Shown piece after piece: positions 19,047 to 52,567 of a stretch of DNA of 64,000 nt. The translations under genes were made by a program, and so were the position numbers. Origin of the DNA: Picochlorum sp. 'celeri' (taxonomy: Eukaryota; Chlorophyta; Trebouxiophyceae); assembly GCA_010909725.1 (NCBI GenBank), contig JAACMV010000008.1:124001-188000 (forward strand). The letters are read 5' to 3'. The notes beneath the pieces were generated by a model. It was not told the DNA's origin and made no database searches. It was given only the letters and a program-made list of their open reading frames with translations. Every line of letters begins with the position of its first letter. Within the stretch, counting starts at the first letter, position 1.

Positions 19047-20045
19047 TTAGTGTGCCGGATGAGAAACTTTTAGAATGTTTAGCCAGAAAAGCCATACGAG
19101 CATAAAGACTATGAATTCGCAGATTACAATCCAAGCAAGCCTTATCCGCGATCTATCCCGATGGTATTGGGTTTCGGACATCGTTCTCTTCTCTTGGGTC
19201 ACGGATTCGGCCTCTGCTCCGATCCAAGAATGACGAGATGACAAAATCGGGTTCTCATGTTCCAAGGCCTCCAGACAAGCTGCAGCGGCCTTTGAAGCAA
19301 CCTGCAAATACTCTGATGCAACAAAATAGTGATTTGAGTCAATCACAATGCGTTCAAATGAAGATTGGGTGTGTCGTGTCCACCCCTTCATGTAGCCTTT
19401 CGGAATGGTGTTGTCCTTGGCCCCGTCAAATGCCAAAATAGGACAGGAGAGCGGCGTATTCTCAACTGAGTACTCGTACTGCACAGCCATCATTATATCA
19501 TTAATTGCCATCGGTGCGACGAGATCATATAAATCCTTGGATTGCTTCATTTCCTCAATTCCAGCAAAATGTCCAGCCTCAAATGCATGCAAGACACTTT
19601 CTTTTGGGAGTGACCTCCAGTCACGTAGATGCGCGACGACTTCTTCTTTGATGACCCTAAAATTACCAAAAAGATAATTTCTCTTTGGATTGTAGATTTG
19701 CATGATAACGGATGCATATTTATCCGGGGGAGAAACTGCTGCTGGTATGAAAAGAAGCGGCATTTTTCTTCCGCATTTCTGCAGCCTTTGAATCATATCG
19801 TAACCAATAATAGCTCCAAGGCACGTTCCAAAAATTGCATAAGGCATCTCATCAAGGGGAAGTGTCTCAATTAGATGCTCAGACAAAGCTGGCAATGAAT
19901 CTATGTGTTCTTCGTTCGATCGCCTTCCGCGGCCAGGGATCTGAACAGGATACACATCTATGCATGATGGGAAAATTTGGTTCCAGTGAGCAAACAGATT
20001 TTCGGCAACTCCGCCTGCCCAAGGTAGACAAAATAGCCTCATTTT
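19047..20045 (-). other. PKS thioesterase-like domain plus C-terminal membrane anchor
   Basis: Alpha/beta-hydrolase of the thioesterase family: LFCLPWAGG near the start, VQIPGRGRR, the nucleophile elbow GTCLGA (Cys codon 19821-19823 in place of Ser), acidic FDGAKDNTIP and a late His in DSNHYF. It presumably releases the chain by hydrolysis or cyclisation. After about 50 further residues comes one hydrophobic helix of about 23 residues (LAWIVICEF to FWLNIL, about 19130-19065), preceded by Arg-rich RDRSRIR and followed by only about seven residues to the stop. This is a tail-anchor topology with the whole synthase on the cytosolic side. Confidence 0.8.
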
Positions 20046-23000
20046 TGCCCGAGAAGCTGCCGCAGGCGCGTTTACTGCATTTTTTCCAGACTCAGCCAAA
20101 GTGTTGTGGACTCTGCCTCCATGATGAAGCAGCAAATCCATCAGAGAAGCAGGAGTATGCGTGATCAACTCGTATGACTCGACTGTCGCAGTCCCCATCA
20201 AGTCATCAATCTTTGCTTTCAAGTCTAGCGATGATAGAGATTCCAGACCTTGTTCACCCAGGGGCGTTGACGGGTCAGGGCGGTCGACTTGCAGAACAGA
20301 TTGGAGAATGCGATCTATGGAACCTTGGTCAACTGATTTCCCTCTCAATGCATTGCTCTTGGCTTTTGATCCGATTTCTTCCAGGTTTGGCTCATATTCT
20401 ATAACCGGAGTAATTGTTTGCAGTTCCTCGTAAATATCTTCTAGTTGATTAGATAAATTGGATCCAATGAGCATCTTGATATTTTTCCAATATGACTGTG
20501 TTGCAACCATGTGCACTGAAGCATTACCGAATCCGATCACCCACTGCAAGGCCGAGAGCCCATGGCCAACACTAAGCATACCCAGAGATTTGGCTTCTTC
20601 ATCCGATGCAGCAAATTTAGCAGCCATTCCTGCGATGAAACAATTTTTTCCTCGTTATTTGTGAAATTCAGTCTCAGCAATTTCCACATAGCACGTACCG
20701 ATTGATCCCCATGCTCCCCATTGTGTTGATGTACATGGAAGACCCTCGACTCGGAGCCTAATCGCGATATTGTCCATGGCGCTGTTCGCGGCGGAGTACG
20801 ATGCATGATTCTTATTTCCTAATAAAGCGGATATCGAGGAGAAGAAGTTTGCACAAAGCGTTGGTCTTGTTCCACGAAACAGTTTCTGTATTGGCTCGAA
20901 TTTGCCCGAATGCACCCGCCTGCTGATATTCGGTGCAGTGTGCGGCATGGTGGCAGCTTGTTGGCTACCCGACGTGTGCAGAAACACCATTGAGATTGGC
21001 ATGTCCCTCCTGTAATTATCATGGTAGATGTCAGCGTCCGATGATATTGAACCATCAATCTTTTCAATGCGAGTGAATCCTGTTCTGGTCAGCGCATCTC
21101 GTGCACGTCCATTGCTAACTCCACTCCTACTGAAGAGATAAACATGGTTGGCAAATAAAGCCCTCCCCCAAGTTGCAGTCGCCATTCCCAGTGCCCCAGT
21201 TCCTCCTGATACTACCAAAGATGCATTGAAAAGTTGTATCTTGTCTTTTCTATTTGTTTGTACTGTCCTTTTCACCTTTTTCACGACAGGCAATGTCGAA
21301 TCGGAAAGCATTTCTCTCTTGTTCTTCTCTGAACTCTGAATGAGGACATTGCTGCTGAATTTCTGAATCGAAACTGTTGCCATCTCCAGATAAACGTTAT
21401 TCAAATACCCACTGACTATGCCATATTCTTTACCCAACCTTTTAGACAGTAGGGGCGTCACTGTATTGAAGTTACTCTCATTAACAATGTTTGAGATGAT
21501 GAGGGATGATTTGGTTTTCGCTGATGCGATCGCTGAGAGTGCTTCTGCAAGAAGTTGCTCAATGTTTAAGACTGGTATTTGGAAGTTTGGCTTAAATGTT
21601 TTAGAGTTTCTCGGAATCTCATTGGCTGCATGGCTTGCACTGTTAACATAGGCCTCATAGCGGTACAGGTTCTCAGGATGGTGCATCCCAGTCATTCGAT
21701 GCATCAGTCCTTCAATTCGAGTCAATCTGCCTCGATCTTGATCAAGAGTAATTGAAGTTTTGGACGCCCTACAAAATTTGCTGTTGCGATCTTGGGGTAA
21801 ATGTAGAGAAGCGACTCGAGCAGCGCAGTTATCCCCATTTCCTGACAATGTGCAGACTCCAAGCAGAGAGTACACATCAACTAATAAGTCTGACTGAGAG
21901 CTAGACGTAGCAACCTGTGCACATGAGGTCTCTTCTTCAATCCACAGGCTTACTAGAGTATTTGATCTATTAATATGCTGTTTTCTCTCAGAATTTCTCT
22001 GAACAATCCCAGGGCCTACTGTAGCTTCTGCTAGTGTTGCCTGCTCATTCACAAGCGAGCAAATTCCGTCCTGTGGGACAAACCGGGCTTTGAACGACCC
22101 TTTAAGACTTAATTTTATATTAAACGCGTTTATGCTGTGCAACACAATATCGTGTTGATCCCTCCCTTTGTCCCCCCGCTCAGAAGAATAAAGTGATAAT
22201 GCTCCTGAGACCGCTGATTCAATGACGAATAAGATCCCACCATTCGATTGGGCCAATAAAGATCTCATTTCAACTGATTTTAGCTCACGCATTTCGTACA
22301 GAATTCCCTCTGTGTGAGTAATAGAGCTAACCTTCATCAAAACTAATGGTAAATGTTTGGCTTCAATCCTGTTGAAGAATTCCCAGACCTGAAAACAAGG
22401 AAAGTAAAAATATGTGATTTCTCAAGCATTTAGACACGAAAAAGTTAGAGAACATATACATCCTATATGTGGAACCTACATGGTGTATGTTGAGCCCGCG
22501 TTTTTGGTCAACTCTGAATTTGTGTATATGAGAGAACATTGCATGAGCATTTATGCCGCTCATACCAAATGAACTAGTTCCAACCACTCCTGGATCCATT
22601 GATACTGCTGAATTTTCTCTATTGATATGATGAGAACCGTCCGCTTCTGCCATAGATTGCGATATAAATGGATTCAATCCCCGGAGGTGCTGAACAGGTG
22701 GCTTGGTGAGGCATCCAAGTAGTGACAAACCACACAAAACTCCATTCAGGCCAGCGTTGCCTTCAGCATGGCCAAGGAATGATTTACTAGCCAACATGCT
22801 CAATACAGAAGTCTTCGAAAAAACTCGTAGTAATGCGCTAACCTCGATGGGATCCCCTAAGGCAGTACCTGTCCCATGGGTAGAAACAGCAGTCACCTCG
22901 CTTGTGCTGATAGCTGCTTGATCGCAGGCTGATCTCAAAAGCTTGACTTGGGCAGAGCCGTTGGGCGATGTCAAACTGCTACTTCTTCCATCTTGATTCA

Positions 23001-26000
23001 TGCAAATTGAGTCGACGTCTGCCACAATGGGTTTCTCGTCGATTGCACCTCTCTCAATCAACTCCATCAGCAAAACAGTTGAGCCTTCGGCTCGGCCATA
23101 GCCATCAGCTTCTTGGCTGAATGTTTGGCATCTACCCGTGAATGAAAGAGCTTTGAGATGACAAATAGCACTGAAAGTATCTGAATTGAGAATTAGGTTT
23201 ACACCAGATACGAAATTGGTACCAGAGCCTTGCGTCATTAAGGAGCTGCCAGACAAATGGCATGCGACAAGCGAAGAAGAGCACGCAGTGTCACTACAAA
23301 TGGAAGGGCCTGCATGTCATAATAACAGAACAAATATATTTGAATATGTTTTAATGTCCAGATTTAGAGTTGCTGTGGAGAAAATATATGGCACAACTCA
23401 CCATTGAGTCCAAACGTGTAAGACACCCGTCCTGCCATGTACGAAGCCCCATTGCCAATTATCGCATGAGGTGGAGGTTTGGCGCCTCTCTGGGGCAAAC
23501 TAGTGAGATATTCATGATACATACAACCTATATAGACACCGCTAGCGATAGAGGTGTCAGTCGAAAGTATCAAAGTGGCGTGCTCTTCCAAGAGAATTCT
23601 CACTTGCGGATCCAACCAACAAGCTTCCTGATGAGTTATTCGAAAGATCTCATGATCAAATTTGAAGACATCCTTGCAAAATGCGGCAAATCGTGTGTAT
23701 GATAACCCGGAAGCAGTGGTAATCGGATCAAAACAACTCTCAATGTCCCATCGCTCATACGGCACCTGTGCAATGACATCCTTCTCGGGAAAAATGCTTC
23801 TTTTAGGATCTAAGCAATATCCTTCAGCCTCAGGGAGTTTCCCAGCAATAGACCTGATAACGATCGACTTCTCCCATAATGAGGGGTTTTCACGTAAGTT
23901 CAAGGTGTTCGGGTCCATAATGGCTCCGTGCTCATTCAAAATGTGAGTGCTGATTGCTAAAATAGAGGGATGATCAAAGGCTACTGTTGGATTGACATCG
24001 ATACATAGAGTCCGTGAAAGAGCATTCGCAAGCTCCATACTTCCTGTGAAAATATTATAATTAATTAGATCAAATGTAAGGATAAATGTGTCTTCAAACG
24101 CATTGCAATTTTTTCTTTCAACGCACCAATAGAGTCCAATCCAGCCTCCATGAAACCCTGATCATCTTCTATTTTTTGGCCTAATATCCCTGCAACCACT
24201 CCTCTAACAGATTCCAGAATGAAAGAATATGAAAATTTATTCATTACCGTTTTCGTCGATATGCGAACAGTGGGCCCCTCGACTGGACTATCGCGATCCA
24301 GATGAATTTCAGTAGGTTGCTGAACCAACGCCCCTACAACTGCATTGTTGAGACAGGCTTGAGAACCCATGATCGCCATTAGAATTTCAAGGCCCATTTG
24401 AGGATATATTATATCCATTCCTTGTTTCCTCATTGCATCTAAATGGCGTTTAGCCATGCCCACACTCCAGGGGCCCCACTCAACAGCCAAAAAGTCCAGT
24501 CCTTTATACCTGTTTTGCTCGCAAACTTCATTCAGGCACGCGTTCGCTGCACTGTAGTTTGTCTGGCCAATGTTGACAAAGGAAGCAGCAATAGATGAAA
24601 ATATAATTGTAGATTTCTGTGGAAGCATTCCATAAGCCTCGGTAAGGAATCGGAGACCATTTGATTTTGGTGCCACTACACTTCTCACGTGAAACGGTGC
24701 CAATCTGGACAATAGGGAATCATGAACGACTCCAGAGGAAAAAATGACTGCCTTTGGTGCAGCATAATTTTGCTCAGATTCCTCGTGATTAGTCTGGTCT
24801 CTCTTCGATATTGAGTAGAACTCCAGTGATGAATGCTCTCCTCCGGCATAACCACTCCTTCCGAACATGTGTATGCGCTTGAAGCATCCGCGGCCATTTT
24901 CAGAGATCCAAATACTGATTAGGGACCCTAATGCACCAGTGCCGCCGACTATGTCCCATTCTATCGCAATCGTATTGGGCCTGGCTGCAGTTTCTATGAG
25001 CACTTCCTCTTTAAGGCGAGCTACACATCGGGCCATACCGATTTGCACGTTGTCATGATCATCTTGGATCATGGAACGATTTAAATCCATGGGTTTCTTT
25101 GCAAAATCCTTCTGGTGATTGAAAAATGCGTTCACTCCTATTTCAGCGGCTGCAGACTTGATTAAGCTAATCTCAGGCAACGTTGAAGTTTGCGAGTTAT
25201 AATGAGAAGATAAATTTCGAGATATTCTCCCCATTAATATGCACTCGTAGTTCTTCTCTTCCTTCATGATCTGCACTAAAGTCAATAGATCTGAAATTTC
25301 AGAAGAGCTTGATCTATCCAAGGAGTACTTTCGGAATATATCCATTTTGCACTGGAATACAACAGCCAAATCCTTGATGAAATCATCGCTTAACAGCCTA
25401 CTACATGATTCTTTAACAGTGTACTCGATTTGGTAGAACTTTTTATCTGGCTCCGTGCACCTGTTGGAGTCGTTAGGTAAGCTTGATGGCCGGAACTGCA
25501 TCCTCTGGATTTTGAATGGGTCTTGCCCTGTCGAAGTTGCCCTGTAGTCGCAGTGTACTGGATCCGATGCTTCCATGAAGTTTTGCGCATCTACAGCTCC
25601 GTGCACCCACTCAATACTGTTTAAATGTTTTGATACTAGACTAGCCTCTAATGCTGTGGGATATCGCAGAACTCCCGGTGACTTGGAAAACCCAGTGCAT
25701 ACCTGCAGAGAGCAGTCAATTTGCGGAGGCATGGACGCAAATCCTCCATCTGTTATCTGTTGTGGAGCAATATATCCTATGCAAGATCTTGTAGTATAGT
25801 TGGGTTTGAATTCCGCTATTTGACGAGCAGCCAAGTTGACTTGTCTCCAGGGTTTGATGCGTGAGTTGTAGCCATATGAAATGGTGCATGAATACGCTTT
25901 CTGGACCCCACCATTCTGTTTCGTTCGGATGGCAAGCGTTCCATCGTTGCTTATTTCAACAAATAATTGATTTTCAGTCAGTGGGCTCAAAATCGTGAAC

Positions 26001-29000
26001 TGATGTGCGAGTGCATTCGTGATCCTAGCACTCTTCTCCTGGTACAGGAAAGCATAACAGTCGACTGATGCAACAAACAGTGACGCGAAGGGAAGAATAA
26101 TTTCTGCATTGATCTGGTGTTGAGAGTGCATGCTCAAGGCATTGTCAGATATGCTGATCTGTATCTCTATTCCTGCCGAACAGGACAAGGATTTGTAATG
26201 CTCGCTAACATGGGCAGGCAGGACCCACAGGCTAATGCGTTTGTAAATGACTTGGCTCCGCAATTCTCTTTCCATCTTTCTACTCTGAATATTTGCAGAT
26301 ATAATTATGTTTGCATTTGTTCCCTGAAATGCAAATGCACTCACGCATGCCGCGATATTCTGGCCTGTAATTGGATTTCCAGATCTCTCCCTGGTGACAA
26401 AAGGTGCAAGTCTGGAACCCAGGGAAACGTGGGGATTCAAGCTTTTCAAATACTGAATAGGTAAATTTTCAATTTTTGAAGATATATACTCAGCAGCAAG
26501 ACAACCAATATGGCCTGATGCTGGCTCTGCGTGCCCAAAGTTCGTCTTCGATGCTGATATTGTCGGCAAGGAATATTTCTCAAACACACGTTGGAGAGCA
26601 CCGATTTCAATTGGGTCCCCCAATGCTGTCCCGGTACCATGGAGGGTAGCATTGGATAAACCAGAGGGGCTCAATCCTGAATTTATGACGTTCGTGCGTA
26701 TCAGGCTATGCTGAGCGGTGCCATTTGGCGCAGTCAAGGACGATGATCTGCCATCCTGGTTTATGTTGATTGCAAGTATCACCGAGCAATTGGAACTGTG
26801 AGCAGTGCTCAGAACTGAAGCAATGCAAGCTTCAGATCTTCCATACCCATCAGCGCTTGAATCTAAAGCTTTACATCTGCCATCCATTGCCAACATTCCG
26901 GATTTCTGAAGTGCCACTGTAGTGTCGCAAGATAATATCATGCTCACAGAATCAGCGACAGATGCGACATTCTTTGTCTTGACATAGTCTACACATAGTG
27001 AAATTGCCACCAATGCTGACGAGCATGCCGTGTCAACACTCATGGATGGTCCAGTGCACCCGAACATGTACGAAAGCCTTCCAGAAGCTACGCTAAGACT
27101 AGTACCAGTACTAGCATAGGAATTGCCTGCTCCATTCATATATCGCATTATCAGTTGCTTATATTCCATATGCTGAATACCAACGTAGAATCCAGATTGT
27201 AAATTTGTATTGAATTGAGGCATGGACTGGATGCATCTGTAAGTGATCTCTAGTAAGCGCCTGTGCTGAGGGTCCATGCACTGTCCCTCCATGGCAGACA
27301 CCCTGAATAGCTCCGCATCAAATTGGTCAACGTGATTTAGCCATCCAGAGAACCGCACTAGCCCTCCCTGAAACAAAATTTAAACCCATAATCGAGCAGA
27401 TGAAAATAGATTTCAATCATACATACATGGTATCGTACCTCGTATACTTCTGAATCCCATCTGTTTGGGGGGACAATTTGTGCATAGTCACTGAAGATTG
27501 GATGTGGCTTGGGAGTATCGGCTTCATGAATCATACTCAACGAGCCGGGGCTAGGGTCTGCAATCATATCTAGTTGCTCCTTTTGGGGAATGATATGATC
27601 AGCATTAGGCGTTTGGCAAATGAAATTTACTATGGCATCCACAGATGGGTAGTCATATATTAATGTTGCTTCCAGCTGCATTCCTGTTTTGGAAGAAAGA
27701 CTACGGGAAATTTCAACCGCAGTCAATGAGTCGATATCCTGAAAATTAATTTCTGGATCCTCGTTTTCTAAGGACGAAAGGATGACGTCACGGACTAATT
27801 CCTTCACCAGGGCTGGGGACTTTTGAACATATTCTACTGGTTCATATCTCTCCTCATGCTGAGATGTAGCTCTGGTGCCGGAGCCATGGTCGAATTCATC
27901 CATTAGCCTCCATTGTCCTCTAAGCGAAAATGCCGACTTCAATAAATTGAGATCGAATCTTAAATGCCCTGTAATGGGCGCGCATGACGCAAGGTATAGC
28001 CTCCAAATCTCCGTGGAAGCAAATGCGCTGATCCCCATTGTCGCAAAGTGGTTTGCGTAATCCTTGGCAAGGCCTTCACTCAAAAATGGTCCCAATCGAA
28101 GGCTATAAGATTTCAGACCAAAATCATACCTGATACGAGATAAATGATCAAGCATAGAGTTGGCACAGGAATAATATGCACCACCTATTTGACTCCAGAT
28201 CGATGAAATAGAAGAAAGATATACTTCCGAACATGTCTGACGCCTCAGAGAGAAATCCACAGAGTTCACCTGCGGTTATTTTGAAATCCATAAATATATT
28301 ATCAGAATAACCATCCCTTTGACCATCAGGTGGGCGCATTACGTACCTTGTGCGAGACTATTTTCCGAAACGTGGTGGTATCCAGTCCACCAATGAGATC
28401 GTTTGCACTTATTCCTGTCGCGAAAACTCGCTGCTCAAAGTGAGGAAATTCCTCCCTTAATTGTTCCTCCAGGCTGCCATTATCTATATGTAATGTAGAA
28501 TCCGACAGAATAATCGATACAATAGAATTAACTTTGCGGAAAGCATGCACCCTATTTTCTGGCAGGTATCCTTTGCTTGAGGTCACCAACGTGTGCTGAC
28601 ATTCTAGCGACAGTACAGTGCTTTTGATATACTCAAATCCAATACCCTGAATTGTGTATAATATAAAATGAGAGATTATCTAGAATTCAGGAAAATAGAA
28701 TCATATCATAGCACACAGTCCTTACCTTCGTTCCACCATACACTAGAATGGATGTGGGAACTTTCGGAGTATGCCGAGGCTTGTGTCGTCCATTTTGTAT
28801 CCTAAGTACATAGCACCTCTGGCCGTTCAGGAGGAATTCGTACTCTCCTGTGCATGTCAACAGATGTCTCAATGTTTCCAGTCCAAGTGCATGTGTGAGC
28901 CCTTCCGAGTTGACCAGCTTGATCGAAGGGGCAAACAGTTGTCTTGACTCCAGGAATATTGTCTTTGATAGAGATAATGTCGCCTCATACTGTTTTATAG

Positions 29001-41000: not shown

Positions 41001-44000
41001 CATGGAGGAAGAGCATGCTGTATCAATACTTGCGCAAGGACCATTCAGATCAAACAAGTATGATATTCGGCCGGAAGCAACACTATTTGCGCAACCTGAG
41101 GCGGAGTATACGTTCGCATCGATCCAAGTGACATGATATTGGTAGTCTGGGGCGCCGATGCCTACCATGACTGAACAACTTTTCGAAACGGCGACAGATT
41201 GTGATATTTCAAGAGAATTCTCCAATAAAAGTCTTTGTTGTGGATCGATACTAAGAGCCTCGGTCAGTGATAATTTGAACAGAAGATGGTCAAATGCAAA
41301 CAAATCTCTCAAAAACACTCCAAACCTTACTATGATCTTATGGTTGACGACTGAGTCATCGTTGGTGTTCCATCGGCAAATCGGTGTGCCAATAACTTTA
41401 TCTGTATTTTCTGTGACTGATTTGTTTATGGTGGCCTTTTGTGCAATGTACCGTATAAAGACAGGCTTTGACGTATCATTAAGGTCATTCTGCATTGATG
41501 TTCGAATCTTGTTTTGTTCGTTTCCAGTTTTATTGCCTTCGAAATTTAAGAGAACATGACCACTCAAAGCTCGGACTGTTGGATAGTTTAGAATGTCAGT
41601 TGCATCTATATTGTAAGGATAAACCTTATTGAGGGAATTCTGCAGTTCGACCAGACCCAAAGAATCCACACCAACATCCATGAATGGATCGTCCAACCCT
41701 ATGGGTGCACCTGTGATTCCTTCTGCAATCTTTTGAATAGACATTTGAATGCTATCGATATCCTCATACTTTGGGATATCTGAACGGGATCGAATGGCAT
41801 TATTATTGGCTGCGAGGACTCCAGCAGTTTCTTCACGGATCTCAGCCAGGAAGTATGGAACAGAACCCACAAGTCTAAAGGTTCTCTTCCATTCCATTTT
41901 GAAAATAGGAACCGATGATATATATAAAATGTTCGCGTTCAGAAGCACGGATTTTAAACAATCTACAGCTTCCGAAGGCTCAAGAAATACAACCCCAGAC
42001 CTGCTGGCTGCCTTACGCACAGCCTGCGTAGATGCCATTCCTTGTGACCAGGCGCCCCATTGAATCGACAAAGCGAGAATGCCTGTGGATCGGCATTCGC
42101 TCGAAAAGGCATCTAGAGCTCCATTAGCTGCACAATAATTGAGCTGACCCGCGGATCCGATCAAGGAGGCAATCGAAGAGAACAAGATGCATTTTTGCAA
42201 CGGCAGGATACCTGTAGCACCTCGAAGGGATACCTTTGGTGCTAGAACTTGGCGTATGCTCGACATATCTTGTGATTCAATAGCAGAATCTTTGGTTATA
42301 CCTGCAGAATGAACTACACCAGTGATTGTCCTTCCATAGGAGTTTTCAATAATCAGATCCCAGTCCTCTCTAAATGTCAAATCACATCCCAGGTGGGTAA
42401 CTTCGCTTGAAGTTTCTGACAAATGCCCAAGTCTTTTAGGCTTTCTATTTATCAACTTTATCGTTTTCATCCCATACGAGATCAGAAAATCTGTTGCTAC
42501 GACTCCAAGGTCGCCTGCTCCCCCTGTAATCAGCCAGGGGTTGGCTGATTCTTCCCTCAGGGGTTTGGCATTTTTAATCATCAATTTCCCTACATGATTC
42601 GTATTGGAATATGCTTTCATCGCTGTTTTCACTGAAGAAATATAATACTGGGTGTAATGCGGAGGTCGAACTCGCTGTTTTGCGAACAAAGTCCCTACTT
42701 CCTTGAGCAGGTTATGAATCGTGCCCGGGCTTGCGTAATCAAGCGCCACTGTGTGCATCAAGACATCTGGCCTTTCTTGTGACATTCGGTGGCAACTCCA
42801 GATATTTCTTTTCCCCACTTCCAGAAAGGAGCCTGAGAAAGCCATGACAGCGGCTGACGCAGCAACCATTCCAGGGGACGTCAAGGAATTTATGACTCTG
42901 TCTACTTCTGATACTGATAAGGATACATCATCGACGAAAGTGGTCTTTCTCGAGTCTCCCAGCGAGCGGCATCGGTAATTTTTCCTGACTACATGCCTCT
43001 TGTGACATGAACTTGCAGTAACAAACGGAGTACAATTTGCTGACTGCGCCACTTCCAATAGAGCCATTCCAAGAGCCCCCGACCCTGCGTGTACCAAGAT
43101 GCGGTCTCCTCTTTTAACACCCTGAATGCACATCAAAGCCGTGCAATAGACCGTTGGCAGAGTGCATGCCTCGTCCAGTGACAGGGACCCAGGTACTTTG
43201 AGCAACATCTCTGGATGGCTTATGCCAACATGTCCACCCAAGCAGCCAGGTACAAATCCAAACACTCTGTCTCCTTGCTTCAGACCTGATTTTGAGCCAG
43301 ACATAATCACACCTGAACAGTCAGATGCAATAGGCTGTGGATTTCCTGGATATAGGCCCATAGCATTTAATACATCTCGAAAATTCAAGCCAACAGCATG
43401 AACACGCAGCGTTAAATCGGTATCACTCTTGTCTGAAGAGGGGTAGAAGTGCATATCAGTACTGGATCTTTGCAAAGTGAAAGACGATGGGATACTATCG
43501 TCCAAACTTTTTTCTAGCCTCGAATCAATTATGACAGAAGCAGATATATGCCTTCCAAATTGACCAAACCGCTTTGAATCCTCACTATGGACTTTATGCG
43601 TAGATGTATCGCTCGTAAACGTCATACACACATCTATTTCTCTCTCAGTTGCAACCGCCTTTAGCATACCATGCAGAGCTCCACTCTTCAAGTTGATTTC
43701 ATTAGCTCTATACGGATACTCCATTGCCATTGAGTGCTTCACTTCGCTGAAATAAAAACCCTTTCCTAACTGTAGTATTGATTTAATCTGCTGCAGTTTT
43801 GCCCCCAGATATTCAGGTATGCTGCGTGTCGCATCACTAGCCAGGCTGACTGCTCCTGTGCGGTCACCACCGACAGGGGCGGAAACCTCTTCCTTAACGC
43901 AGTAATTGAAATTATGTTCTTGGAGACCCGCAGAAGGGTCGTATCTGCGATAAAACGGTTTTAGCGTCACTTCATTCATTGTCAACTGACTAATCAATTC

Positions 44001-47000
44001 AGCTTCTAACTTCATGCTCGAAGCTGAAGCCAAGGCGTGCATCTCGCGACAGTTTGATGGACGTCGCCTGGCATGGACGCCCATGAAAGAAGTTGGTACC
44101 GCAAGATTTGTTTCTCCAAACCTGAAAATAGACAATGCTGATGCGGTATGCATGGCGCTATCTGCATAGAAGGGATCTATAGAGTGCGATTGCCTAGCTG
44201 AGTTGGCGGACGATATTCTGGCAATATTTGCGGTGGCAATTTCTTCTTTCTTCATGTCATAGATGCAAGAGACGAATATCAATGAACAAAAATTCATATG
44301 CTGTCGTTTTGTAGGATATCGAGACATCCGCAGCGGTAGAACCTCGGAGGTGTCGGAGGAACAGCGCTGTCCTGTTCCTGAAAACATATTTAATCGTCCC
44401 TGCACTAGACTGAAGGAACATTGGATGTCCAAGTCAGCCACAGAGCTCAAAAGAAGCGGTGACGTAATAACGGCTGATATTGCAGACTTTCTTTGCTTGT
44501 TATCCTCTAGACCCAAGTCAATGCAGCTAGAGCAAATATCCAGAAACCCTGTCCCAGGAAATATTGGCTGTCCTCGCACTGTATGCTGGTATAAATCGGG
44601 TACTTTTGAAAGCGAGATTTGGAACACGACAACATCGGTAGATATCGACAATACTTTTCTTGTTAATGTTCTGTGGATCGCCGGAAGCCAGTATTGGTCT
44701 CTAACAAAAGGAAGACGCCTAGAATTAAAGGGTCCGCCTCTACCTGCCTGGCAAGAGAACACAGCGTGTGCGTTGACGCCGCTCATTCCGAAAGAGCTCG
44801 TGGAGGCAAAGCCAGTCTCAGTTGCAATGCTACCAGAAAGTTCCCTTGGGAACGACTGCGACCCAGCACTGTCATTTCCCCCTTCATTCTTTAACAGTTT
44901 TGAGATGTGAGGGTTTAGGCCGATTAAATGTGTTATGGGTGCAACGGACATTCCTTTCAAGTGGGACAACGCCAGTATACCTCCAGCAAGTCCTGCGCTC
45001 CCCTCAGTATGCCCAACCATCGACTTGGAGGACAGAATATATTTTGGAGGAGTGTGTTCAACCCCATAGCCCTTCATGATTGCGCCAACTTCAATGGGGT
45101 CTCCCAAAGATGTCCCAGTTCCATGAGATGAGATGGATGAAATATCACCTCCTTGAAGTGATGCTTCGCGAAGAGTTTGTCTAATAAGAGCCGCCTGCGA
45201 AAGGCCATTTGGAGCAGTTAATCCACTTGATCTACCCGAGTGATTGAATGAAGTTCCACGAATAATGCCTATGCTGCTATTGCTTGGTTTCTTGTCTCTG
45301 CCAAGAGCCATTGTAGTAACCCCTTCACCTCTACCGTAGCCATTGGCTACGGAAGAGAAGGCTTTGCACCTTCCATCTGGGGAAAGCGCATTGAGTTGAC
45401 CTATTGCATTCATTGTATCCGAGAATGTTATCGTAAAAACCCCTGCAACCACTGAGCTCTGACAGTCCTGATCCTGAAGTGCTCTCCTCCCCAAGTGCAT
45501 TGCGACAAGCGATGAAGAGCAAGCAGTATGCGTCGACACACAGGGTCCAACAAGGGAGAAAGAGTACGAAATCCTCCCTATGAGAAAGTCCATTCCATTT
45601 CCTGTTGTTATTGATGGCTGGATTGGAACTCCCTCTCGGGAAAGATACTGTATGTATTCCATGTGCATGACACCAACGAACCTGCAAGGCAATACATCGA
45701 GACTCAATCGCAACACCAGATGAACGCCAATCATCAATATCACTCTCTTACAATCCTGTGGAATTTCTCGAGGATGAATTCCAGTCAGTTTCGACCAGGA
45801 CGCCCAAGGTCTCTTCGAGCAAAAGCCTCCCCTGGGGATCTAGTCCTTTGGCTTCGGAAGGTGCAATTTTGAACATCTCTGGATCGAATGCTTCCAGATT
45901 TTCAAAGTACCGTCCCATATAGTACGAATTGCCACCTAAATAGGGAGATGCACTTAGTTGATTGATACACGCTGTCTTCGAAGGTGATACAAGAGAGTAT
46001 GCACATACCTTCAAAAAGGTGCATCCTTTGTTCCATGTCCCACCGGTTCAGCGGGACAGTCCTCACATTATCAACTTCTGATGGTGAGGCACAAGCAAAT
46101 TTGTACAAAGTTCGCATCGCATTGTTAGGGAAAGAGTATGATACAGAGAGTATTTCGGTGTTCACCATGTCCTCCAAGCTTTCCCCAGGAACCAATGGAA
46201 TTATGCCAACACCATTAGGTTCTGGAGCGAAACTAGATGCAATTCCATCTGCTAAAGCACGTGCATCTGCATAGTCAAAAAATTGTGATACAGGTATATC
46301 AAAATCAAACCTTGCACGAATCTTTTCAGACAATGCCTGTAAACTCATCGAGTCCAGTCCGGCCGAGAACATAGGTTGATCTGGGGCGATGCTCAATCCC
46401 AAGGACTCTATGATGTCTTGTAGCTCTTGTAGAACTTCAAACGCTGTCATCACTTTTTTTCTGGGTTTGGGTACACCATCATGGATGGGCTGTTTCTCAA
46501 TCACAATTCTCAAGATGTCTGGGATTGTCTGCATCGAACTACCAATCTTTATCCAATCAAAAGTGTTGATCATCAATGTTGAGGCCCTCGGGCCTTCTTT
46601 GATATCATTTGCTATTGCAAGTAAGAGATTGTTCATCTCATCAAGCGCATTGTCGGGCTGTATCAGGGCTAGCCCCATCTGAGACATTTTCTGTACGAAC
46701 CCCTTGTCCTCAGCTGCCATACCCCTTCCTCCCCAATTGCCCCACTGAACAGCAATGCTTGGGATTCCGATCATACTTCCATAATCTCCCCATTCATCTA
46801 GTGCCCCATTGGCGGCAGCATATACTGACTGTCCGTGCACACCACTGAAAGCAGCGATGGACGAGAACATCTGCAACGCATCAATTGGCAGAGCAGTGGA
46901 CAATCCATAGATTATGCTAGCTCCCGTCACTTTACCTGCAAAAACATTTCGAATACTTTGAACAGTTATATTTGGAATTAATTTGGAGTCTAACTGCCCT

Positions 47001-50000
47001 CCAGCATGCATTACACCTGTCACTGGGCTATCCCTGGAAGCATAAAAAACCCCAGCAAGATCTTCTCTCTTGGACGAATCGGCCATTGACAAAACGATTC
47101 TAGAACAGAACAGTTCGTGCATGAAATCAAACTTTTCGGAAGGCTTAAATTTTCCAGTTCTTCCTAGGAAAACTCCTGAACTAAGGTTGAAGACGGCTAT
47201 CCATAGGGAGATCAGACTTCCTATGGCTCCCATTCCACCGGTTACCACAAGTTCTTGACGAGGCCTCAGAAACTCTTTGGCTCGATGTGAATAGAACATA
47301 TCAGTGTTTGGGACCAGTACAGGGTGCTTGATACAATTCCCTTCGATCCAAGACTCGAATTTAGTCCCGTTTGCATTATGCTGGTATCCTTTTTGACTTT
47401 TGGCTTGGCCTATCTGAGATGAAATGTACCCTGCTGTATCGGGAGCCTCATTGCGCAGCACGCGTAGGAAAGACTGGAACTCTCTCGACGGTCCGATCAT
47501 TTTAAATCCATGTAGATAAAACGAACATGCGTTGGCCTGTGCGAAAATAGGCAGGGAAAAGGACAAGCCTTCCAATTTTTTGCCAGTTTTCTGCCAAGCC
47601 ACCTGGAGAGCTTCGCTTAACCAGGAAGTTGCGCTCTGCTCTGACTCAGGACGCCTCTTGATCTGAAATCCTGTCTCAAACTGTAAAGTCAAATTCTGGA
47701 ATCTATGACTACCAACTTTTTGATGACTATCGGGTAGTTCTGTCTGATATGATATGGAGTAGCGGTCTGTCAACCGACCTTCGATTTGCCTCTCCTGCAC
47801 CAATTCTTTGGACTCTAAATCCGATATTTTGTGGTCTAACATATTTTTTGAGTTTTGTTTTATTCCCCAGTGATCTGTGTGGATTATGTGTTTGCCAAAC
47901 GTCTTGAATACAGATGCATACATTGCTTGAGATTTTGGTTCGTCATTGAGCATCAACCTCTTCACTGATACAACAGCTCTTGGCCTCTGAGTAGCTCCTT
48001 TGGTATATGATGTGGCTGGTCCTAGATGAATTGAGCAGTCTAAAGATGCAGGATAACGCTCAGAGTTTTCACAGATGATTTGTCCGAAGCTAGCTCTGTG
48101 GGGTTGCAACCATGCATCTCTGATTTGTAGAGCGCTCTCAATTTTTGAAAGTCTGCCTTCTTCTGGCCTTTGCTCTCGAATTATTGCGTTCACTTTAGAT
48201 GAATAGTGGTTGATTCTCTGGATTTGGTTCAGAGAGGAGAGATGGACCAATCCGGACGATACATTAATTTCAAACCTCAACAACAGAAAGGCCTCCAGCA
48301 GCACTGGATTCATAATCACGGCATCCCCAAGCACAAGGCGGGAACTGGCAGCACTTAAAATAGATGCAATAAAATCTTTGGATAGAGAAAACATTCCTGA
48401 ACCTGGCATTATAGAGCGTGATCCGACAACATGGTCCCACATGTACGAGTCCTCAGGCCTTAACATGCTTTCCACTACCGTCGTGGATCGCTGAGGGGTA
48501 TATCCTCCAAAAACGAAGCGATTGGTTAGTACCACGGGCCAATTGATTTTTCTATAAAGTAAAGTATCGGTACCCGGAAGCATACTCTCCTCTATGCCTT
48601 CCAGTGCGATGCAGGTATTGGTTCCACTCATTCCGTAGGAACTCACAGTGCTGATGTTGACATTTCTGCAAAGACTGCCTCCAGATTGTCTTTGAGGCAG
48701 AAATTTCTTCCCTCGATGGTTGAAAATATTTTGAATAAATGGGTTCAAATGCCTCAATGAGTGGAATCGAAGATTGCGGAGTTGCAAAATTGATGAGAGT
48801 GCCCCCGCGATTCCATGAGCACCAGCAGTTCCCTCCGTATGTCCAATTGCAGATTTCAGCGAGACTACACATCAGGAAGAATTCAACGAAGTTGACTAAC
48901 ATGTATACATATATTCAGCACATATGACATACCCAGATATTTGACTGAGGCTATCGAGTCGTACACGGTGTCAAGTGCCCCGATCTCAATTGGGTCACCT
49001 AAGACAGTCCCGGTTCCATGCAGGTTGATGGACAAAATATCGTCTCTAGCCACCATCGACTCTTGTAAAAGCTTGAATATCAATGAAGCTTGAGAAGGTC
49101 CATTGGGGGCGGTAAGAGAACTGCTTCTTCCGTCTTGATTGCACTCGCATCCTTTGATATACCCAATAATGTCCGATGGGTGACTCTCTGCATTTCCGAC
49201 CACGATGGCAACACAGCCCTCCCCTCTGCCGTAACCATCAGCCGTGGAGTCTAAAGTCTTGCATCTTCCGCTCACAGAAAGTGAGCCTAAGACCGCCAGA
49301 TTTAGCGTCGTCGTGGGAAGAAGCATGAGATTTGTTCCTCCGGACACGCCATGCCCAATCGTCCCACGACGCAATCCATTGCTTGCCAGGTATACTGCAA
49401 CAAGCGACGAAGAACAGGCTGTGTCGATCCCAATACATGGTCCCTTGAAGTTAAATGTGTAAGGAATTATTCCGGATGCGAAGTTCAATCCACTGCCTGT
49501 TAGATGAGCCAGGTCTGGTGCAAGAACAGTATTTCTCAGAAACCCAGGAAACTCATTCCAGACACAGCCGACATATGTTCCAACAGAAGAGATAGATGAA
49601 TTTAGCGAAATAGTCCTTTTGATTGCAAGTAAGGTTGATTCGAGCATTAATTTTGACTGAGGGTCAAGCCACAGTGAGTCCCGTGCAGAGATCTTCAGGC
49701 TTTCACTGTCAAAGCAATCAATGTGCTGTATCCAGCAGCCATGGGTCAGCAGGCTTTCACTATTCGCTATTTTTGACACATGCTCCTCAGAAATATGAAA
49801 TCTGTCTACCGGAGCTCTGTTCGTATGCTCTTTATCATCCGCAAGGAACGCGAGTATACCCGGCTCGAGAAGAGGTCCAGGGCTCCTCGAGTAACCACCA
49901 GACGTACCCTCAACGCTTAATATTGTAAAACCTGAGGATGAGGCAGCTGGATGAATTAATAGACTTTTATCATTCGTAAACGTGCCAATTTGTCTTAACT

Positions 50001-52567
50001 TTTGGACTATAAATCCAGTGAGCGAAGCCACATCAGCGTAATCAAATGCTATTGTGTCTGGCAGTTGCAGGCTGAAAGCATCCTGCAGTGCCTGCTTGAG
50101 CTCGATTGACGTAATCGAGTCCAGACCAATGTCAGCAAAGTAGAGGTCTGATATATTACCATCAACTTCCAGAACGTTATGAATTGTCTTCTCCACAATA
50201 TTTTGTACCTCTTCGTCACTGAAAGCAACATTGTCATTGTGCTCAAAATTCTGATCATACACATCAGATTCCTTCACGTGCGATGCTATACGTCCGCTTT
50301 CAAGATATTGTATGCTGTGAATAGATGTTCCAAATCCCAAGTAAAGGTCTTTCTTCGTGCGGGAGCATGTGGTTCTCCTCATGGGGGCGGCTGCATCTGA
50401 ATGGTTCAGCATATCTGATGACAGCGTCCTGGTTGCATCAACCGATGCAGACAAACCCCTCGATTGGAGTGAGACTTCAGAAAAGAGTTCTTTCCACATG
50501 TCCGAGCCAATACATATGCCTATTGGATCCAAATCGAGGAGATCTGGGCGAGAAAAGTTTTTTGATGGAATCATCAATCCTTGCCATCTATCGTGGCACT
50601 CACACCTGCTGCTGCTCTGTGTCAAATGTTTCCCAATACATCCAGCAGCCACAACTTCCGCATTTACTAGGCTGTCTGATTTAGTCTCCATTAAAAACGA
50701 TGGATGTATACAGCTGAACTTGGCGCAGATTTCAGTGTTCAACGCGCCTGATACACTGCCTAGAACAAGGTCCAACAGAGAGGTTTTGATCTGCAGAGCG
50801 TGGGTGCAGATCTTGGAGGCAAGGCATGCGAGTAAGACAGAAGGCAACGTGGGCGTGCTATGAATCGATTGACTCAGAATCCAAGATGAATTTGAATCGA
50901 TTCTTCCAATGAAAGCCAGATTTCCATTTCCTGTTGTTGGCTGCATGGAAACGCGCGCAAATATGCTGATGTGCAATGCCATCCACCAGCATGGCTCCAT
51001 TTTCCAAGCGGGGCCAATGCCCTTTCGTTGTTCCCCGTCTAAGCTTTCATGAATTCTTTCCACAATAATATGGGAATTTGTTCCCTGAAACGCGAATGAA
51101 CTGATAGATGCTGCCGAAACGCTGTTGTGCACAGCAGAAAAGCAGCCTGGGCTTCTGAGAAAGCCAAAGACAGCCTTTTGATTCGGTCTCGCTTCCAGCA
51201 CCCTGATCACATACGGGTTTATCTGAACAAGATTCTTGAAGTCAAGTCCAATATTAAACTGCAACCGCTCCATTGCATGGAACAGCCCGACCGCACCAGC
51301 TGCAGGCTCGGCGTGCAGTACGGTGGCCTTTGCTGCCTGTACTTCAAGGGTCATGTCCTTGGCAAAAACGGAGGTCGCAGCACCAATTTCGATAGGATCA
51401 CCTAGTGCAGTTCCTGTACCATGCATTTCAAGAATTTCAATTCCCTCAGGCATAACTTTCCCAGCAATTAGGGCGCCCCTAATGACTTCTTGCTGCGCTG
51501 GGCCATTTGGAGCAGTGAGACTTGAACTTCTACCATCTTGCCCAACAGCAGTTCCTGAGATATATACACTTGAACTGCTGCCCTTAGTATCTTTCTTTTT
51601 CATCAAGTGCACAATGCAGCTCTCAGCTCTACCATATCCATCTGCTCTGCCATCCAAAGTCTTACATCTTCCATCAGCTGAGAGCATGCTGGCTGCTTTC
51701 AGAACCCACGAAGTCTCGTGACTGATAAGTAGATTTACCCCAGAAGCAATTGAGAAATTCCAACCTCGAGACATTGAGCTAGTGATAGACAAGTGTATTC
51801 CAACCAATGATGAGGAACACGCTGTATCAATGCTTGAGGATGGTCCTCTCAAATTGAATGTGTAGGACACCCTCCCAGACAAGACACTGAGCGTTCCGGA
51901 TGTCGCCATAAGGGCATTCTTCTCCAGATGTAGCAGATTCAAGAAATATTCATTATATGACACGCCCACTGTTATCGAACAGGATGAAGGGTCGAGTAGA
52001 CCCTGGGCATCGTGCAGGCATGCTCCAACTGACTGCAGCAATAATCTTTGTTGTGGATCCATATACGAAGCCTCTTTCCTGCTAATACCGAACGCATCTT
52101 TATCAAACAAATAAATATCGCTAATAAACGCTCCAAAGCGCTGTGGCATGGTGTTTCCTGATATGCGTTCAGCAAACGCAATATCCCATCGTTGGAGTGG
52201 TACCTGAACACTCATCACCCAGTCCATTAACATATTCGTGGATGCAAACAACCAGACCATCACCGACGTACCATATTGCAAAAGTCACCATCTATGGAAA
52301 AGGGTTTTTGCCACTCAGATGATAGAATCTCGGCCTTGATATGCGAATCATGGGAAGGTATATTTGGAGACATGCAAATCGGCATCTGCAGGAATGGTAC
52401 GTTGATCAATACACGATCATACAACAAAGAAACATCATGGGACATACATCATACAAGGACTCATCATCAGACGAATAGATTTCTGCGTATTCTTCCGGCA
52501 AAAGGCGAAAACCGACCGCTTTTGAAGTGCCCGACTCCCCGTGAATGTCCAGCTCGCGGTTTTCCAT
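19047..52567 (-). CDS. Giant nine-module AT-less type I polyketide synthase
   Basis: Assembles a polyketide on carrier domains. Exons on the minus strand: 52567-52448, 52385-52272, 52203-48933, 48864-46009, 45935-45752, 45681-40308, 40218-38285, 38211-35130, 35043-28726, 28646-28347, 28269-27439, 27367-24127, 24043-23402, 23309-22480, 22388-20699, 20629-19047. All 15 introns are GT-AG, 62-92 bp, and restore frame inside recognisable domains; the sum is 32,370 nt, divisible by three. An extra in-frame 66-bp intron is likely at 31148-31083, leaving about 10,767 residues. Order: nine modules of KS, DH or DH remnant, sometimes ER and KR, then ACP, ending in TE and one transmembrane helix. Each KS is followed after about 70 residues directly by the DH region, so there is no room for an AT; post-KS RxPFxRxxYW-like linker remnants remain. 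Substrate AT and the ACP-priming phosphopantetheinyl transferase must be elsewhere. The product is unknown. Confidence 0.93.
20110..23890 (-). other. PKS module 9: KS - DH remnant - KR - ACP
   Basis: KS9 has DTACSSS (Cys 23281-23283), HGTGT and GHAEGNAG, with an intron (23401-23310) just before GPSICSDTAC. The about 500-residue region after KS9 has no HxxxGxxxxP motif. KR9 has GGTGALG and FSSISA...YSAANSAMD and is cut by the intron at 20698-20630. ACP9 reads GLESLS, Glu for the usual Asp before the active Ser (near 20239). Expected to leave a hydroxyl. Confidence 0.8.
23940..27510 (-). other. PKS module 8: KS - DH - KR - ACP
   Basis: KS8 has DTACSSA (Cys 27023-27025), HGTGT and GHAEPASG. DH8 keeps the His and Pro of the first motif with Gly replaced by Ala (HQINAEIILP) and a second-half QIDCSLQV. 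KR8 has GGTGALG and FSSIAA...YSAANACL. ACP8 is interrupted right after its active Ser (GLDSIG/SMEL) by the intron at 24126-24044. Expected to leave an alkene. Confidence 0.82.
27600..31480 (-). other. PKS module 7: KS - DH remnant - KR - ACP
   Basis: KS7 has DTACSSS (Cys 30916-30918), HGTGT and GHTEGAAG; a 66-bp stop-free intron probably sits at 31148-31083. The DH remnant has Gln in place of His and Leu in place of Pro (LLTQIENVKISSML), although a second-half LDTAINL survives. KR7 is split by two introns (28725-28647 inside GGTK/GIG, and 28346-28270) and keeps SSISS...YSCANSMLD. ACP7 reads DIDSLT, with Asp where Gly is usual (Ser near 27728). Expected to leave a hydroxyl. Confidence 0.8.
31083..31148 (-). 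other. Probable stop-free 3n intron in KS7
   Basis: 66 bp from GTAGGT to AATGCAG on the minus strand, 22 codons without a stop. The encoded segment (RLHECLCLQ onward) is absent from the other eight KS domains at this place. Removal gives NDLGNFIGCMNFDY, matching NTGVFVGCMYQEY in KS6. Confidence 0.7.
31540..35250 (-). other. PKS module 6: KS - DH - KR - ACP
   Basis: KS6 has ADTACSSS (Cys 34645-34647), HGTGT and GHTEGAAG. DH6 has DHNVQGRSLVPG and ELDTHFHL. KR6 has GGTDGIG and FSSISP...YASANYYLE. ACP6 carries GLDSLT (Ser near 31664). The intron at 35129-35044 precedes the RWD motif of KS6. Expected to leave an alkene. Confidence 0.85.
35330..37670 (-). other. PKS module 5: KS - DH - ACP, no KR
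   Basis: KS5 has DTACSSA (Cys 37224-37226), HGTGT and GHLEPASG, so it looks condensation-competent. DH5 keeps the catalytic His and the Pro nine residues on (HFVRDKIVFP) and a second-half LDAASH. Only about 100 residues separate DH5 from ACP5 (GVDSLV, Ser near 35452), so no KR fits. A DH without its own KR, following a KR-only module, recalls the dehydrating bimodules of bacterial trans-AT synthases. Confidence 0.8.
37730..41470 (-). other. PKS module 4: KS - DH remnant - KR (Asn lost) - ACP
   Basis: KS4 has DTACSSS (Cys 41013-41015), HGTGT and GHCETAAG. The next region lacks the DH His (Leu at that position before QVPEMT). KR4 has GGTRGLG and the Ser/Tyr pair in ISSISG...HYAAAS, but Ser replaces the usual Asn after Tyr-Ala-Ala-Ala. 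ACP4 carries GLDSLT (Ser near 37852). If KR4 works, the product is a beta-hydroxyl, which DH5 of the next module could dehydrate. Confidence 0.8.
41540..46180 (-). other. PKS module 3: KS - DH - ER - KR - ACP, fully reducing
   Basis: KS3 has THTACSSS, with His in place of the common Asp before TACSSS (Cys 45519-45521), HGTGT and GHTEGSAG. Its N-terminal part is split by introns at 46008-45936 and 45751-45682. DH3 has HTVRGQPIFPG and ADSAMH. This is the only ER of the protein: VGLNFRDVLNAMG and the NADPH loop HAGSGALGMALLEVA, about 43.4-42.6 kb. KR3 has GGAGDLG and YCAANGALD. ACP3 carries GVDSLG (Ser near 41662). Expected to leave a methylene. Confidence 0.86.
46200..49930 (-). other. PKS module 2: KS - DH - KR - ACP
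   Basis: KS2 has DTACSSS (Cys 49414-49416), HGTGT and GHTEGTAG, the last reached across the intron at 48932-48865. DH2 has the intact HxxxGxxxxP motif (WDHVVGSRSIMPG) and a second-half Asp in SLDCSIHL. KR2 has GGMGAIG and a Ser-Tyr-Asn set in FSSIAA...YAAANGALD. ACP2 carries GLDSMS (Ser near 46350). Expected to leave an alkene. Confidence 0.85.
49940..52385 (-). other. PKS module 1: KS - inactive DH remnant - ACP
   Basis: Starts about 45 residues after the protein N-terminus; there is no loading domain before it. KS1 has DTACSSS (Cys codon 51817-51819), HGTGT and a third-motif His in VLHAEPAAG, where the Gly usually before that His is Leu. The following region aligns to a DH N-half, but Gln stands at the catalytic His position (SQSIHSTPTLP). 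There is no KR. ACP1 carries GLDSIT with its phosphopantetheine Ser near 50117. Expected beta-carbon state: unreduced ketone, unless enzymes act in trans. Confidence 0.82.

Follow-up and report, generated by a model that had tools for sequence, protein, structure and literature searches.

Here, we show that a window of 64,000 bases from Picochlorum sp. 'celeri' (C8:124001-188000; the window is this whole stretch, as analysed here) contains one minus-strand gene for a polyketide synthase (PKS) of nine modules and 10,789 residues, and that by every sequence test run this protein lacks an acyltransferase (AT). The original prediction of an AT-less, nuclear, single-gene synthase with an AT presumably acting in trans is supported. 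Giant AT-less PKSs are widespread in green algae, and one review presumes their loading enzyme to be encoded as another gene (PMC7073580). Four PKS loci without a match to AT and only two AT loci per haplotype were found in the compact diploid genome studied here, which makes the question of the loader testable by removal of single genes. Overall, we consider it rather probable that the window encodes a nuclear, non-iterative type I synthase of the AT-in-trans kind that is loaded by an ankyrin-repeat transferase, is tail-anchored and makes a cell-wall or cell-surface polyketide.

Gene structure and domain content

The genome comprises 27,412,692 bases in 30 contigs, with each examined locus present on two of them, as in a diploid; the published description gives a phased diploid assembly of 27.43 Mb in two sets of 15 scaffolds at 46% GC (Becker et al., PMC7225527). 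The gene runs on the minus strand from an ATG at 52567 to a stop at 19047 (19047..52567), and its 16 exons form a single open frame once 15 GT-AG introns, each 62-92 bases long and together 1,151 bases or 3.4% of the gene, are removed, confirming the coordinates, strand and length proposed earlier. Intron 1 (52386..52447, 62 bases) and intron 2 (52204..52271, 68 bases) are followed by intron 3 (48865..48932, 68 bases) inside the ketosynthase (KS) domain of module 2, intron 4 (45936..46008, 73 bases) in the N-terminal part of KS3, intron 5 (45682..45751, 70 bases) inside KS3, intron 6 (40219..40307, 89 bases) at the GTNAH motif of KS4, intron 7 (38212..38284, 73 bases) after the KR domain of module 4 and intron 8 (35044..35129, 86 bases) in the N-terminal part of KS6. 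Intron 9 (28647..28725, 79 bases) interrupts the NADPH motif of KR7, where the matches to the related proteins P0122 and P0123 stop too, and intron 10 (28270..28346, 77 bases) also lies inside KR7. The remainder, likewise on the minus strand, are found in the N-terminal part of KS8 (intron 11, 27368..27438, 71 bases), beside the serine motif of ACP8 (intron 12, 24044..24126, 83 bases), inside KS9 (intron 13, 23310..23401, 92 bases), after KS9 (intron 14, 22389..22479, 91 bases) and in KR9 (intron 15, 20630..20698, 69 bases). A frame-compatible GT-AG pair alone is no evidence for an intron, because 76-192 such pairs occurred in each of 15 junction tests (without intron 5); the introns were chosen on short length, splice sites and the conserved motifs that they restore.

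A bacterial cluster carrying frameshifts is ruled out by the introns, by the eukaryotic neighbours (L2, SBDS, RETICULATA-like and Vps18) and by the genome itself, and the claim of a nuclear origin stands. Viral contigs scanned with ribosomal protein L2 gave no match. Several separate genes are likewise ruled out, the gaps between coding stretches in the gene model being at most 92 bases.

Domains were called by Pfam on 12 exon frames of the PKS (that is, all but the small exons 1, 2, 5 and 10), by a six-frame KS search and by motif checks, which together give the nine KS that had been predicted. Besides nine KS, the protein has nine ACP, seven KR (modules 2, 3, 4, 6, 7, 8 and 9), two DH (modules 3 and 6), one ER (module 3) and a terminal thioesterase. 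Its first domain is a KS, with neither an AMP-binding domain nor an AT upstream. The nine KS and nine ACP have catalytic motifs, those of the KS including Cys and His, and stand alongside the other PKS domains in the one protein; at the third catalytic residue of KS1 the pattern was silent, yet the sequence reads LHAEPAAG at that place. Along the minus strand, module 1 (49993..52352) consists of KS, 276 residues without a DH or AT match, and ACP; module 2 (46235..49830) of KS, a DH remnant, KR and ACP; module 3 (41541..46147), which is fully reducing, of KS, DH, ER, KR and ACP; and module 4 (37725..41459) of KS, 446 residues without a DH or AT match, KR and ACP. Module 5 (35331..37667) has KS, a DH remnant and ACP, with no KR found; module 6 (31543..35207) has KS, DH, KR and ACP; module 7 (27607..31491) has KS, 481 residues giving a weak DH signal when homologues are included, KR and ACP; module 8 (23919..27585) has KS, a DH remnant, KR and ACP; and module 9 (20109..23876) has KS, 411 residues without a DH or AT match, KR and ACP. 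ACP8 and ACP9 (GLESL) were recognised by motif only and the other seven by Pfam, and KR4 reads YAAAS where YxxxN is expected.

The original prediction proposed a search with the Pfam AT model PF00698. Pfam, on the exon frames scanned, detected no AT, and the same holds for an AT profile built locally, for the comparison of profiles and for inspection of motifs; as claimed, no GHSxG-type AT motif occurs in the 10,789 residues.

Candidate loading enzymes and the proposed product release and use

A stand-alone AT had been suggested to lie elsewhere in the genome. Searching the entire genome in six frames with PF00698 gave six candidates at first look and led to two loci per haplotype, both malonyl-transferase-like. 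One, L003 (C7/C24), starts with a short Ser/Thr/Arg-rich exon that by eye resembles a transit peptide; the other, P0001 (C3:1172794, allele on C23), joins ankyrin repeats to an AT domain and has no transit peptide visible by eye. Over 213 residues, the second AT exon of L003 shares 46% identity with P0001. P0001 scores just below the NCBIfam FabD cut-off (249.8 vs 260.9 bits), and its predicted structure consists of an ankyrin domain and a FabD fold (pLDDT 90.9). In an alignment of 47 sequences, the serine of GLSLGE and the histidine of GAFH are invariant and Arg356 is nearly so; we take these three to be the catalytic residues. The N-terminus, in our own reading of the protein and its homologues, has a conserved MPRDMxGTGRYPP-like start ahead of the repeats.

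This type of transferase appears, from sequence comparison, to be conserved from Chlorella to Chlamydomonas and, judging by protein codes, also in Prasinoderma and Chlorokybus. Among the listed matches (the best 120 of 7,873, from 8,000 scored candidates), many green algae have homologues with at least 80% query coverage, including Chlorella, Parachlorella, Myrmecia, Trebouxia, Bryopsis, Pycnococcus, Dunaliella and Gonium; a Picsp_1 protein among them is 86% identical, and the local alignment of the Chlamydomonas reinhardtii homologue, CHLRE_02g088250, covers 56% with the ankyrin part present. We take the codes Chlat1 and Mesvir1 to stand for Chlorokybus and Mesostigma, and presumably Tetraselmis and Prasinoderma are represented as well; the putative Mesostigma protein is without its N-terminus. 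With the ankyrin half of the putative Chlorokybus protein as query, 28 of 779 candidates matched: 20 with ankyrin plus AT, six weak ankyrin proteins, P0242 (286 residues, no AT listed) and P0243 (292 residues, AT listed without ankyrin).

We propose P0001, the ankyrin-repeat malonyltransferase, as the likeliest loader of the PKS on sequence grounds, since neither it nor the PKS shows a presequence, a choice made by elimination rather than by demonstration. The main argument against it is its kinship with mitochondrial malonyltransferase (MCAT); a further one is its occurrence in the putative Chlorokybus and Mesostigma proteins. In a Foldseek search with the P0001 model, human mitochondrial MCAT was the best match at 44-45% identity, bacterial transferases reached 35-37% at best, and the list also included the trans-ATs of the disorazole and bacillaene synthases; a separate comparison gave 263 bits for human mitochondrial MCAT vs 181 bits for bacterial transferases. 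Such kinship suits a role in mitochondrial fatty-acid synthesis, and the two AT loci found per haplotype offer no second mitochondrial candidate. It is thus conceivable, although we think it unlikely, that the ankyrin transferase serves as the MCAT of mitochondrial fatty-acid synthesis and that the PKS is loaded by the plastid MCAT L003, by a dual-targeted form of this enzyme or within the plastid. However, human mitochondrial MCAT is also the nearest relative of L003, by a small margin, so this kinship alone does not fix location. Furthermore, the conserved N-terminus of the ankyrin transferase homologues has no evident presequence, the N-terminus of the PKS is acidic, and the first exon of L003 is transit-peptide-like. 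A wider reading, in which a cytosolic ankyrin malonyltransferase is the trans-AT of green-algal PKSs, its ankyrin domain may dock on them, and one of these PKSs is tail-anchored with release by a Cys thioesterase, is put forward tentatively, as a possibility that falls somewhat short of an even chance.

The thioesterase (19317..20039, minus strand) is RifR-like and reads FGTCLGA where RifR (3fla) reads FGHSMGA, placing a Cys (in GTCLGA) where RifR has its Ser. Downstream, a hydrophobic segment at residues 10756-10786 (19059..19151, minus strand) is a predicted tail anchor. Both features, the Cys thioesterase and the tail, hint at the site and the manner of product release from the PKS. The route that we propose would begin with a free-standing malonyl-CoA:ACP transferase charging all nine ACPs with malonyl, after which each KS would condense once. 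By textbook domain logic, modules 1-9 would yield keto, hydroxyl, methylene, hydroxyl, keto, alkene, hydroxyl, hydroxyl and hydroxyl, and the Cys thioesterase would release the chain. Because the N-terminus is not transit-peptide-like and the C-terminal segment is hydrophobic, we infer that the PKS may be tail-anchored to an endomembrane, facing the cytosol. The statement that the product cannot be predicted from the specificity domains of the PKS itself is formally true, but malonyl extension throughout is the simplest prediction, since both AT loci per haplotype look like malonyl transferases. By analogy with Chlamydomonas PKS1, the likeliest use would be a cell-wall or cell-surface polyketide. 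We noticed that only one phosphopantetheinyl transferase locus per haplotype (PF01648; L007/L008, C4:460580 and C30:463220) was found for all ACPs.

Allelic divergence and the inter-domain regions

Between the window and its allele on C17, the PKS region is 99.5% identical, with 185 SNPs and 15 gap positions over 38.6 kb. Of the SNPs inside the gene, 14 lie in the 1,151 intron bases and 108 in the 32,370 bases of exon (P = 8e-5, Fisher's test), an intronic excess seen in 19047-29000 (P = 0.006) and not significant in 29001-52567 (P = 0.078). Three of the four allelic indel events also fall within that intronic 3.4% of the gene (P = 1.6e-4): three bases at 52264 in intron 2, three at 24060 in intron 12 and one at 20650 in intron 15. 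These contrasts support the gene model beyond its open frames. Divergence is uneven along the gene, with 82 of 122 SNPs in 19047-29000 and few in the 5' two thirds, resembling what gene conversion or a loss of heterozygosity would leave.

Substitutions alter 107 codons, 49 synonymously and 58 nonsynonymously, and omega between the alleles is roughly 0.41. The C17 allele lacks two bases (21872..21873, minus strand) in a short GT repeat of exon 15, which shifts its frame within module 9. Considering this deletion and an omega of only about 0.41, constraint on the gene may be weak. The same two observations could be read as decay, with one allele frameshifted and the enzyme on its way to loss. 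We regard this as improbable: no substitution between the alleles leads to a stop, none of the KS and ACP motifs is broken, and the frame is kept, across the stretches covered, in relatives of 97%, 83% and about 38% identity. Moreover, the deletion may be an assembly error, because the published assembly was polished with long reads only (PMC7225527).

The regions between KS and the next assigned domain depart from the original prediction in two respects. It held that each KS runs into a DH or a DH remnant, whereas remnants were found only in modules 2, 5 and 8, and modules 1, 4 and 9 match nothing of the kind. The DH profile, built from other loci of this genome together with modules 3 and 6, matched these two strongly (hence not independently). 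It gave E values of about 1e-16 for modules 2 and 5 and 1e-6 for module 8, with no match in modules 1, 4, 7 and 9. When homologues were included, the region in module 7 gave a weak DH match (hhalign, 88.6%) that leans partly on distant homologues, themselves DH-like; AlphaFold with three sequences gave a pLDDT of 28.5 there. It also held that no space of 300 residues exists, whereas the distance from KS to the next assigned domain is 276-481 residues, and 276-446 in modules 1, 4 and 9. The structural half of a KR takes about 200 residues. The stretch in module 6, where a real DH precedes KR, is also 446 residues, which leaves little room for a 300-residue AT in stretches of that length.

The local AT profile, built from 11 algal transferases, had no positive score in any inter-domain region, and it scored 223 bits on the plastid AT exon. 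Pfam with a limit of E 10 found no AT in the regions of modules 1, 2, 4, 7, 8 and most of 9, though HMMER filters discard most matches above about E 0.1 despite that limit, and in hhalign profile comparison modules 1, 4 and 9 matched nothing (1 and 4 as single sequences). A degenerate AT concealed in the three of nine inter-domain regions that lack an assigned fold and that neither the DH profile nor the AT profile matches, and whose counterpart in module 7 yielded so uncertain a structure, is thus very improbable given these null results, the lack of GHSxG and the length of the DH-bearing stretch.

Relation to known systems

PF00109 matches across the genome place four PKS loci on each haplotype, and the three outside the window were annotated on one haplotype from unspliced ORFs. 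One (C4:312171-364330) starts with an AMP-binding domain and has 11 KS and a thioesterase; another (C3, about 959.8-981.0 kb) has an AMP-binding start, four KS and a thioesterase; the last (C1:103210-126970) has six KS and no thioesterase found. A six-frame genome search with PF00698 gave no match in any of the four, and none of 18 Pfam-scanned pieces of these three loci contained the domain, with about ten further ORFs or ORF ends of at least 200 residues lying outside that scan. The main frame at C4:312171-343499 (L013-L016) is uninterrupted for 10,443 residues, and in the C30 allele the KS matches lie within shorter frames. The thioesterases of the C4 and C3 loci read GHSYGG, and nothing in their last 120 residues resembles the hydrophobic end of the window PKS. 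At the end of the C1 locus (L022:3210-4532; C1:103210-104532, minus strand; allele C21:1029559), KR and ACP are followed in one 441-residue open frame by a Nup98 autopeptidase domain (PF04096, E 7.5e-20). Over 132 residues, the alleles do not differ in the Nup98-like part, which by eye has CFT where the normal Nup98 (C8:647535) has HFS, the frame stopping two residues on. Some PKS genes of P. renovo are reported to decrease under high salt.

Close relatives of the exon spanning modules 6-7 are P0122 (97%) and P0123 (83%). P0126 is colinear with PKS residues 4230-7296 at 38%, and P0227 with residues 7597-9690 at 36% and 10041-10708 at 43%; the thioesterase of P0227 likewise reads GTCLGA, and the C-terminus of that protein looks hydrophobic by eye. 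PF00698 is listed in none of these four relatives. In a midpoint-rooted FastTree tree of 72 KS, a small sample, KS5, 6 and 7 pair in order with three KS of P0126 and KS8 and 9 pair with KS of P0227 (support 0.99-1.0), deeper branches are weakly supported, and the bacterial clade does not include the KS of the window. P0227 is labelled "bacterium" (MAG) by its source, yet is colinear with the C-terminal third of an algal PKS, and probably stems from a mis-binned contig of an alga.

The main result conforms to a rule already published, in that giant AT-less PKSs are usual in green algae. An AT-less protein of this size had been described as an extreme case, whereas AT-less multimodular PKSs are the rule in chlorophytes according to Shelest et al. 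2015 (PMC4661987), who describe two PKSs of Chlorella variabilis with 10 and 9 KS and subunits of 1.2 MDa, and the C4 frame of the same genome is by itself of comparable length. Like the chlorophyte synthases of that study, the window PKS is nuclear and giant, has several modules and no AT; its leading KS, Cys thioesterase and hydrophobic tail do not appear in the part of that text available to us. From the KS count alone, we would guess it to be an orthologue of the 9-KS CvaPKS2. The candidate trans-AT, the tail with the Cys thioesterase and the nucleoporin fusion are new details, none of which was found among the literature matches listed.

In Chlamydomonas, PKS1 is linked to the zygospore wall in three reports (PMC6912462, PMC9832785, PMC7073580), one of which presumes the AT of PKS1-type synthases to be encoded as another gene (PMC7073580). 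The window PKS resembles PKS1, the 11-module chlorophyte PKS, in being AT-less and multimodular with a terminal thioesterase (PMC7073580). However, PKS1-type synthases start with an adenylation domain and have 11 KS, whereas the window PKS starts with a KS, has nine, and carries no N-terminal adenylation or ligase domain; by domain content, C4:312171-364330, not the window gene, looks like the PKS1 counterpart. As in bacterial trans-AT PKSs (e.g., bacillaene and disorazole), its modules are AT-less and a free-standing AT is predicted to load them; unlike these, it is one eukaryotic gene and not a cluster. Overall, multiple KS, no integrated AT, a free-standing AT elsewhere in the genome and a nuclear green-algal gene place it with the chlorophyte AT-in-trans PKSs.
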